A stretch of DNA of 64,000 nt from Desulfarculaceae bacterium (lineage in GTDB: Bacteria > Desulfobacterota > Desulfarculia > Desulfarculales > Desulfarculaceae). Under the pieces are notes generated by a model. That model was not told the origin of the DNA and searched no databases. It saw only the letters and a list, made by a program, of their open reading frames with translations. The position numbers were made by a program, and so were the translations under genes. The stretch spans positions 310,001 to 374,000 of the forward strand of contig JAHLKT010000001.1 of assembly GCA_020444545.1 (NCBI GenBank), read 5' to 3'. Position 1 is the stretch's first letter. Every line of letters starts with the position of its first letter. Below, piece by piece: positions 40,753 through 43,107 of the stretch.

Positions 40753-41283
40753 ATGGACCCGGTGTACTGGCTCTTGGCAAAAGCCGACCCCATCCTCATC
40801 GCCCCCTACCGCTGGTTCGCCGACCCGGTGACGGGCTGGTGGGTGGGCACGGCCATGCTCTGCCTATGGTGCACCCTGTTGGGCGAGGCCACCCTGGCCC
40901 TGGTGCACTGGTTCAACCGGGAGTACATCGAGCGCGAGAAGCGGCTGATGATGGAGGGCCAGGAGAAGAGCTGGGAGGCACTCCAGGCCGGCAACCGGCT
41001 GGCATACAAGGGGTTTAACGACCAGGCCAACGACTCCTTCGGCAAGAGCTTCTTCATGGGCGTGGCCATGGGCTCCTCATCCCTGTGGCCCGCTTTTTTG
41101 GCAATGGCCTGGCTGACTTGGCGCTTCGGCTCGGTGCAGGTGCCCCTGCCGCTCACCCCCTGGACCATTAATTTCGCGGCCGGGTTCATCCCCATATACA
41201 TCGCCATGCGCGTCTTGTGGTCCCTGGGCAAGCGGGCCTTGCGCCCTCCCTCCGAGCCTCCCTCGCGCTCCGGGCCGGCTTAA
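40753..41283 (+). CDS. Small membrane protein of unknown function
   Basis: 176 residues from ATG 40753. Three or four membrane helices: WWVGTAMLCLWCTLLGEATL, SLWPAFLAMAWLTWRF and FAAGFIPIYIAMRVLW. Between the first and second is a charged loop (FNREYIEREKRLMMEGQEKS, then NRLAYKGFNDQANDSFGKSF). The C-terminus is Pro/Ser-rich and basic. I do not recognise the family. It follows the TauE/SafE gene behind a terminator, so it is likely an accompanying protein. Confidence 0.65.
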   Translation: MDPVYWLLAKADPILIAPYRWFADPVTGWWVGTAMLCLWCTLLGEATLALVHWFNREYIEREKRLMMEGQEKSWEALQAGNRLAYKGFNDQANDSFGKSFFMGVAMGSSSLWPAFLAMAWLTWRFGSVQVPLPLTPWTINFAAGFIPIYIAMRVLWSLGKRALRPPSEPPSRSGPA

Positions 41284-41319
41284 TGTCTTCTAGGGCCGCG
41301 AAAAGATATTACAATCAGC

Positions 41320-41349
41320 TTGACAAACCGCCGCCTTAGTTGCTATTTT
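41320..41349 (+). promoter_or_regulatory. Promoter of the outer-membrane barrel gene
   Basis: TTGACA at 41320-41325 and TATTTT at 41344-41349 with an 18-bp spacer (or CTATTT at 17). The expected start is near 41356, at the 5' side of the folded leader. Confidence 0.55.
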
Positions 41350-41354
41350 TGGCG

Positions 41355-41571
41355 ACAAGGTTTCGTCAGGACCACGGGAAGCCGTCTCTCGGCTAGGAGA
41401 TCGGCGTCAATTTCCGCCCTGTCGTGGCCTTGTTAGCAAGGTTCTCCGCCTACAAAGGCCCAGGGGTGAGCCTACCCAGGACGGAGGATCTCGGCTGGAA
41501 TCGCCAGCCCTGGACATAGTGTTCAACGGCAAATGGCGCTTCCGGTATCCCTGGAAAGGAGAAAAGGTCTA
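41355..41571 (+). ncRNA. Long structured 5' leader of the barrel-protein gene
   Basis: About 217 bases ahead of the start codon. Long-range stems are ACAAGG (41355-41360) with CCTTGT (41428-41433) and CCACG (41372-41376) with CGTGG (41423-41427); inside them are two hairpins (GCCGTCTC/GAGATCGGC and GGCG/CGCC). A second domain is closed by CTCCG/CGGAG around 41443-41488, and the hairpin GGCTGG-AATCG-CCAGCC follows at 41492-41508. I cannot match it to a known riboswitch. Confidence 0.45.
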
Positions 41572-42726
41572 ATGAAGAAATTTATGATCATCGCTATCGC
41601 GGCGATGGCCATGTTGGCCGTATCCGTGCCGGCCCTGGCGGACGTGTCGCCTTCGACCTACACGTTCCAGATGGGCGCTCGTATGCTGACCGACATCGGC
41701 TGGGATCAGCGTAGCGAAGAGCTTACCAACAACGGCTCCGACGCGGTCGGCAGCTGGTTCCTGAACATGCCTGGTCACAGCTACCTGCGCGCCCGCTTCT
41801 ACAGCGTGGACAAAAACGTGGGTGGCCGTATCGAGCTCGGCCTTAAGAGCCTGCAGCCCGAAGCCAGCGTCAGCCTGCGTTATGCCTACGCCTATTGGCG
41901 TGTGGGCAACTGCCGTATCCTGGCTGGTCAGACCGACAACTGGTTCGGTTCCTTGGCCTACCACGTGCGTCAGTACGTCGGCCTGAACGAGAACGCTCAC
42001 CTGTTGATGTTCGGCTGGGGCTTCCTGTGGCCTCACCGCGTGCCTCAGGTGCAGTTCACCTATAACACCGCCAAGTGGGGCGTCCAGTTCGCGCTGGAAG
42101 AGCCGCGCCAGAAGACCAACTACTTCGGCACCGGCACCGACAGCAGCTTCATGTTCCCCCGCGCCAGCGTGACCTTGATGTTCAAGTTCGGCGGCTTCAT
42201 GGCTCACCCGGGCTTCAACTTCGTGAACCACAAGTATGAGTCCGGCAGCACCGGCGCCTTTGACGACAGCTACAACACCTGGGCCTTCGTGCTCCCGATC
42301 AAGTACACTGTCGGCGCCTTCACCCTAAAGTTCCAGGGCCACTACGGCGTGAACTTCGCGACTGAGTATCCCTTCTACCCCGTCGCCCTTACCCAGCCTT
42401 ACCGCAACGGCATCACCACCGGCGGTATCGACGACACCACCATCTACGGTGGTATCCTGGCCGGCGAGTACAAGATCGGCAAGATCATGATCACCGGTGG
42501 CGTGGGCTACGAGAACTTCTCCAACGACGCCTGGTCCGGCAAGAACGGCTTCTCCAAGGACGAGAACGTCCGCATGGGCGCCTTCATCGCCGTGCCTTAC
42601 CAGTTCACCAAGAACTTCGGTGTCCACCCCGAGTTCTCGTACTTCAACTACGGCGACAGCCCCCAGACCGGCAACGGCCAGGGCAACGAGTGGCTGCTGG
42701 GCGTGCAGTTCCGCTTCGTCTTCTAA
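41572..42726 (+). CDS. Outer-membrane beta-barrel (porin-like) protein
   Basis: 384 residues from ATG 41572. A signal peptide (MKKFMIIAIAAMAMLAVS, cleavage at VPALA-D) is followed by alternating aromatic strands typical of a barrel (YLRARFYSVDKNVGGRIELG, WLLGVQFRFVF) and a C-terminal Phe, the BAM recognition signal. The codon usage (more CGT and GGT) suggests strong expression. It resembles the conserved outer-membrane proteins of sulfate reducers described as porins; transported solutes are unknown. AAAGGAGAA precedes the start. Confidence 0.8.
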   Translation: MKKFMIIAIAAMAMLAVSVPALADVSPSTYTFQMGARMLTDIGWDQRSEELTNNGSDAVGSWFLNMPGHSYLRARFYSVDKNVGGRIELGLKSLQPEASVSLRYAYAYWRVGNCRILAGQTDNWFGSLAYHVRQYVGLNENAHLLMFGWGFLWPHRVPQVQFTYNTAKWGVQFALEEPRQKTNYFGTGTDSSFMFPRASVTLMFKFGGFMAHPGFNFVNHKYESGSTGAFDDSYNTWAFVLPIKYTVGAFTLKFQGHYGVNFATEYPFYPVALTQPYRNGITTGGIDDTTIYGGILAGEYKIGKIMITGGVGYENFSNDAWSGKNGFSKDENVRMGAFIAVPYQFTKNFGVHPEFSYFNYGDSPQTGNGQGNEWLLGVQFRFVF

Positions 42727-42753
42727 GACAAGCTTAACCGCATAAATCACCCC

Positions 42754-42790
42754 AAGGGGGCCCGGCTTAAAGCCGGGCCCCCTTTCTTTT
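42754..42790 (+). terminator. Rho-independent terminator after the barrel gene
   Basis: A 14-bp perfect stem (AAGGGGGCCCGGCTT with its complement across AA) followed by TTTCTTTT, 27 bp past the stop. It is among the strongest terminators in the window. Confidence 0.9.
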
Positions 42791-43107
42791 GCCCTTCGCC
42801 CCCGGCCGGGCCCGGCGGCGGTGGCGCGGGAGGCCCGGCGATGGTAGCTTTTGGCTCACTTTCGCACAATAACCTTGACAGAGTTGGTTTTATGGGCTTA
42901 CAAAACGGCATCCGGGAAATTGCCGGTCCCGCTGCCGCCGAAGGCGGGGCGGGAGTTTTAGCTTGCACCGGGAGTGCGATGCGGGCGGCCGCCTTTCAGG
43001 GCTGACGATAGGTCTTAATACCTGAGCGGCAAGCGCCGGTCCCCAGCGGGTCCGCCGCCGTCCCAACCGTATCTCCCGTTTGGACATTCAAGGTAAGGAG
43101 CTCCGCG
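42791..43107 (+). other. Upstream region of the aminotransferase gene with a possible leader
   Basis: 317 bp without a gene. TTGACA at 42875-42880 is followed 17 bp later by TTACAA, a weak promoter match. The remaining ~200 bases to the start codon hold several inverted repeats (for example CCGCC-GAA-GGCGG near 42934 and AGGT-ACCT near 43010). AAGGAG precedes ATG 43108. I do not recognise a riboswitch class. Confidence 0.4.

Follow-up and report, generated by a model that had tools for sequence, protein, structure and literature searches.

A conserved, folded leader of a Desulfarculaceae porin mRNA and a G-rich hairpin loop common to many porin leaders: a candidate cis-regulatory RNA

Introduction

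Does the leader of approximately 217 nt that precedes a porin gene of a Desulfarculaceae bacterium form a conserved RNA structure and, if so, what might recognise it? The locus was analysed within a window of 64,000 nucleotides (the whole stretch of DNA under study, to which all plain coordinates refer; see Table 1). What is known of porin control after transcription comes mainly from gammaproteobacteria that possess Hfq; the present case matters in that many porin mRNAs carry an RNA hairpin in common although neither Hfq nor ProQ was detected in the family.

Table 1. Features of the porin locus and its leader RNA.
Feature	Position	Strand	Remarks
Promoter	41320..41349	+	TTGACA, 18-nt spacer, extended -10 TGcTATTTT
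Leader of porin mRNA	41355-41571	+	~217 nt; start ~41355 predicted from promoter
P1, 5'-terminal hairpin domain	41355..41433	+	outer arms 41355-41370/41418-41433; apical loop around TCGGCTAGG 41389-41397
P2 hairpin	41443..41487	+	outer stem, internal loop, short inner stem; common to many porin leaders; models R1, R2
P2 apical sequence GGGGTGAGCC	41463..41472	+	loop GGGGTGA + inner-stem GCC; presumed recognition site
P3 hairpin	41494..41546	+	GCTGGAATCGCC 41494-41505 pairs GGCGCTTCCGGT 41535-41546; inner hairpin about 41512-41524; helices 5 and 6
Shine-Dalgarno AAGGAG	41556..41561	+	sequence; AGGAGAAAAGG-like block before ATG conserved in relatives
Porin gene	41572..42726	+	384 aa, signal peptide, porin-type barrel

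Results and Discussion

The porin gene and its relatives

The encoded protein scored above cut-off with neither Pfam nor NCBIfam families; its AlphaFold model (mean pLDDT 68.8; 12 sequences) matched solved porins, with DcaP (6eus_A, E 1.7e-14) as the best match, and according to this model the gene behind the leader is a porin. A search of 60 genomes yielded the porin in 22, counting the own genome. Upstream sequences of up to 600 bases were collected for 56 porin-like matches, six of which (G004_C71, G003_C416, G014_C87 (twice), G017_C555_4278, G010_C1_1017261) were dropped before clustering on account of an improper start or coding sequence upstream, leaving 50 usable regions in 34 clusters. 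The gene of the window (41572-42723) and its paralogue G000:C7:179901-181052 are identical at gene bases 241-1140; their first 60 bases are 68% alike and their leaders unrelated, a sequence pattern suggestive of a recent gene conversion that left the leader out. Behind the porin gene lies a strong terminator hairpin (42754-42784), which accounts for a weak Rfam match to BjrC68.

Promoter and fold of the leader

The promoter matches 10 of 12 consensus positions with TG preceding the second hexamer (0.4 such sites expected in the stretch scanned), and it is also present in the orthologous leaders of G001, G007 and G004, with the variants TACCTT in G006 and TAATTT in G002. A transcription start near 41355 is therefore plausible, in agreement with the start at about 41356 that a preliminary description of this DNA had proposed; it is predicted from the promoter. 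The promoter-to-ATG distance is alike in several leaders with well-predicted promoters (about 180-220); the promoter prediction is poor in many leader clusters.

The leader reached a fold energy of -91.9 kcal/mol (z = -3.3; none of 200 dinucleotide shuffles was that low), as expected of the folded leader described beforehand, and the conserved P1+P2+P3 fold (-91.0 kcal/mol) differs by 0.9 kcal/mol from the plain minimum-energy fold. The final hairpin of the preliminary description was revised: both segments, GGCTGG (41493-41498) and CCAGCC (41504-41509), are present, but they do not form the conserved pairing, and forcing this hairpin costs 5.6 kcal/mol (-86.3 versus -91.9). The P2 loop of the window's leader could alternatively pair with 41505-41513. 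For the leader of the next gene (42906-43107), z was -0.39 and the promoter search found none. A terminator scan of 41200-42850 revealed three sites, all at 42752-42784, and no intrinsic terminator inside the window's leader; terminator-like sequence was seen in the relatives G010 and G014, by eye only. Gap lengths in the orthologue alignment A2, judged by eye, gave no support for a conserved leader peptide.

Compensatory changes in orthologous leaders

Alignment A2 comprises the five leaders that are orthologous over their full length (window, G001, G007, G006, G004) and contains the three hairpins plus a small Shine-Dalgarno hairpin, P4. Conserved pairing with covariation had been named beforehand as the test of a regulatory RNA, and it was found: 17 of the 61 pairs carry double-sided changes, and 88.7% of the cells are paired, compared with 37-53% for slid partners and a value never attained in 500 shuffles. 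The three hairpins are thus kept by compensatory change, and the leader, in which this change exceeds both the slid and the shuffled controls, belongs to the conserved structured RNAs. That it is a real, structured element we regard as very likely.

The contributions of the individual hairpins differ. In P1, 10 of 25 pairs are changed on both sides (five orthologues, helices 1 and 2). Within A2 alone, the long stem of P2 has one double change and its inner stem two. P4 (A2 columns 209-225) pairs the Shine-Dalgarno sequence in the window's group; covariation is absent from it. The P1 loop sequence TCGGCTAGG is unchanged in all five orthologous leaders, and a similar sequence, TGGCTAGG, is present in the leader of the paralogue G000:C7:124082.

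The P2 hairpin and its shared loop

The most informative part of the leader is the GGGGUGA loop of P2 (41463-41469), which the preliminary description did not contain. In six leaders, 8 of 13 P2 pairs are double-changed and 94.8% paired, versus 32-62% for slid partners, a signal that owes much to the addition of G002 and an improved register. Among 16 divergent leaders, the corresponding values are 10 of 13 and 87.3% (32-53% slid); the latter alignment, having been fitted to the model, is biased towards it. The apical sequence GGGGUG(A/C)(G/A)CC was found in 34 of the 50 usable porin regions, 83-131 nt upstream of the ATG, and in 20 of the 34 sequence clusters; the regions that share it are otherwise almost unalignable. 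As to the origin of this pattern, a first version (GGGTGN(G/A)(C/T)C, last 350 bases) had matched 29 of 56 upstream regions; slightly widened and supplied with a position limit, it matched 34 of the 56 (the same 34 of the 50 usable).

An unbiased k-mer test, independent of the pattern, gave the following counts among the 34 leader clusters: GGGGTG in 21 (shuffles, 6.7), GGGTGAGC in 10 and GGGTGCGC in 8 (shuffles, 0.3 each). Across 30 shuffles, the top count of any 6-mer was 19 and that of any 8-mer 6, so that the two 8-mers are the stronger result. Pairing between the two flanks of the loop exceeds that of shuffled flanks, with p<0.05 in 12 of 20 clusters (Fisher 6e-11; 3e-9 after leaving out the window's group and G002), and the loop has a mean unpaired probability of 0.59 versus 0.38 for the leader. 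Mean fold z was -1.73 for leaders with the motif and -1.28 for those without it, a modest excess over shuffles. P2 with its near-invariant G-rich loop is thus common to many otherwise unrelated porin leaders. Fourteen of the 34 clusters are without the loop, including one of the five full-length porins of the own genome (G000:C7:124082) and tandem downstream copies; such copies may be under other control. The loop-less copies G006:C1:3649149, G006:C1:3650704, G005:C18:52607, G007:C182:26150 and G004:C118 have AT-rich upstream sequence and are mostly tandem downstream genes.

Two further readings of the loop were considered. As a short conserved sequence in a promoter region, the loop might be the DNA-level operator of a transcription factor; however, where the promoter of a leader is good, it lies approximately 100 nt within the transcript, and the compensated variation of its stem is unneeded for DNA binding, which leaves this as the least probable of the explanations considered. 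The 3' end of 16S rRNA reads UCACCUC. With GGGGUGA, seven contiguous pairs including one wobble are possible, and the loop could in principle serve as an extra ribosome docking site; yet AGGUG would pair better than GGGUG and no A occurs at that place among the loops listed, so that we regard ribosome docking as highly improbable.

The own genome contains 65 GGGGTGAGCC sites, and 27 of the 30 inspected lie in coding frames; in consequence, the loop sequence by itself would not suffice for a reader, which would need the surrounding hairpin. An antisense partner was sought among the 30 inspected sites, of which, besides the window's leader, L184 and L192 looked intergenic. L192:1480-1545 is an intergenic GGGGTGAGCC copy with a P2-like hairpin by eye; within the genus it was not conserved, the sole match being a 24-base piece of G005 that misses the loop. 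Cis complements of the P2 loop were not found at a consistent position across the leaders, and a pseudoknot between the loop and a downstream CTGG, proposed by eye, was dropped since CTGG is part of P3.

Recurrence in P3, and possible roles in mRNA stability or ligand binding

A second short sequence, AGCTGGT, was found in 7 of 34 leader clusters (0.6 in shuffles), and in leaders outside the window's group, L137, L133 and L149 among them, AAGCTGGT is found again within or close to the P3 loop. Judged from the sequences, AGCTGGT/AAGCTGGT near the P3 loop is a possible second recognition site. Two short conserved sequences in or near neighbouring hairpins would also suit a metabolite or ion riboswitch of P2 and P3 whose binding residues would be GGGGUG(A/C) and, for several genera, AGCUGGU of P3, and the outline resembles that of two-hairpin riboswitches such as guanidine-II. 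Against this speak the absence of AGCTGGT from most leaders, the very small conserved core, the lack of an Rfam match, the restriction of P2 to porin genes among the strong R2 matches (see below) and the window's leader being without a terminator; nor does masking of the Shine-Dalgarno sequence appear consistent (0.41 unpaired on average versus a background of 0.38). A riboswitch therefore appears improbable.

The same value, which means that the Shine-Dalgarno region is not notably open, also tells against a pure mRNA stabiliser of the ompA type, in which P1 and further stems would shield a highly expressed porin mRNA from RNase E-type enzymes and the shared loop would be merely structural. 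P1 does begin at the predicted start, several leaders with well-predicted promoters are similar in length (about -180 to -220), and passages of PMC7509114 deal with how stable ompA mRNA is. A protective stem needs no fixed loop, however, and it is the GGGGUG sequence that is kept across clusters while the stems are not; pure stabilisation is accordingly regarded as rather unlikely, though more credible than a riboswitch.

Distribution of the element

Two covariance models were used. R1, for which six leaders of the group around the window were used, matched leaders outside its training (L054, E 0.0045; L058, E 0.008; 177 kb searched). R2, a model of P2, was built from 16 of the 34 leaders (row L148 visibly misaligned), selected to keep out the opposite-strand palindromic matches of R1. 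Over 20 whole genomes of the family, R2 gave 19 matches at E<=0.05: 18 are porin leaders (13 model rows; four held out, namely G004:C9, G002:C36, G006:C1 and G007:C75; one new, G019:C89) and the remaining one is antisense to secG. Two further new matches lay above the cut-off, G003:C423 (E 0.052; a porin-like start downstream, where the contig ends) and G019:C170 (E 0.19; a porin 91 bases on). Eight other matches above the cut-off were examined, several of them on secG-like or other coding sequence, and the remainder is mostly what is expected at chance level. Class-wide, R2 at E<=0.05 matched 13 of 20 family genomes and none of 43 genomes outside the family; of 297 genomes sampled evenly across the phylum, seven matched, six of them of the family and the seventh (G184, E 0.044) as expected by chance. 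Searches over more than 40 genomes were run with stricter filters, through which weak relatives may escape.

The comparison with Rfam bore out the earlier impression that the leader belongs to no known family: Rfam 15 gave no match above gathering threshold in the window, seven matches at E<=5 of which none lay within the leader, and, for 20 of the 34 leaders at a relaxed threshold (E<=1), one weak, unrelated match only. The families of a 2017 study of 224 motifs are assumed here to be largely included in Rfam.

Candidate trans-acting factors

Hfq (search profile PF17209) and ProQ were each detected in none of the 20 family genomes, some of them incomplete drafts (own genome listed at 100%), while control genomes were positive. 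CsrA was found in none of the eight genomes of the window's genus and is present in 10 of the 12 other family genomes. These results are at odds with the classical control of porin mRNAs. In other bacteria, such as enterobacteria, Hfq- or ProQ-assisted small RNAs or CsrA often act on porins. Besides the undetected proteins, the P2 loop is without GGA, the CsrA motif, and such control is very unlikely here, in spite of the precedent of ompA (PMC7509114). Of the structured regulatory leader initially proposed, the structured part is backed by covariation, whereas the analogy with small-RNA control of porins is weakened.

Proposed mode of action

We infer that the leader acts in cis once transcription has started. 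A stem free to vary around a fixed loop is what loop recognition predicts, and recognition is consequently favoured; what remains is a putative protein, an RNA that acts without Hfq, a ligand, or an effect on stability only. Tentatively, and ahead of the alternatives above, we propose that the leader is a new cis-regulatory RNA and that a putative trans-acting factor binds its P2 loop. The exposed GGGGUG(A/C) loop on its variable stem would be the docking site of one such factor per cell, either a protein that binds RNA or a small RNA that would pair through a CACCCC seed and work without Hfq or ProQ. Several porin paralogues with different promoters would thereby receive one common post-transcriptional signal; P1, at the extreme 5' end, and P3 would flank the site and probably also shield the mRNA from decay. 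With the same reserve, the element may represent a new RNA family that unites Desulfarculaceae porin paralogues in one post-transcriptional regulon with a reader outside Hfq, ProQ and, in the genus, CsrA. If functional, one loop on unrelated leaders would mean a regulon defined by RNA instead of by the promoter, and the exact loop could be used as bait to fish out the putative regulator.

Comparison with known systems

The literature on Desulfarculus and porin, candidate structured RNAs, and conserved RNA motifs and porin, as far as its texts were accessible, does not describe the element; the words porin and outer membrane are absent from the accessible main text of PMC11109978, PMC8632094 and PMC2864571. 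A search on Desulfarculus and Hfq returned nothing.

In outline, riboswitches of the guanidine-II type offer a parallel, with adjacent hairpins, short conserved loops and variable stems; the porin element differs in its loop sequences, its porin-only association and the lack of an Rfam match. Desulfobacteraceae is a group related to Desulfarculaceae. Its gcsH motif is likewise a rare, lineage-specific leader RNA, which, according to PMC11109978, precedes gcsH, whereas the present element precedes a porin gene. A further parallel is the predicted cis-regulatory RNA of omp35 (SO3896) of Shewanella, a porin leader for which cis action was suggested where enterobacterial small RNAs are absent (PMC2659441); the lineage differs, and the two are likened by description, not by sequence. 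The 5' untranslated region of E. coli ompA, finally, is also a long, structured leader of an outer-membrane-protein mRNA with a 5'-terminal hairpin, a likeness of architecture: The ompA leader is a stabiliser and a target of MicA/Hfq, whereas the Desulfarculaceae leader has three hairpins and a loop common to many paralogues, in a family in which Hfq was not found.
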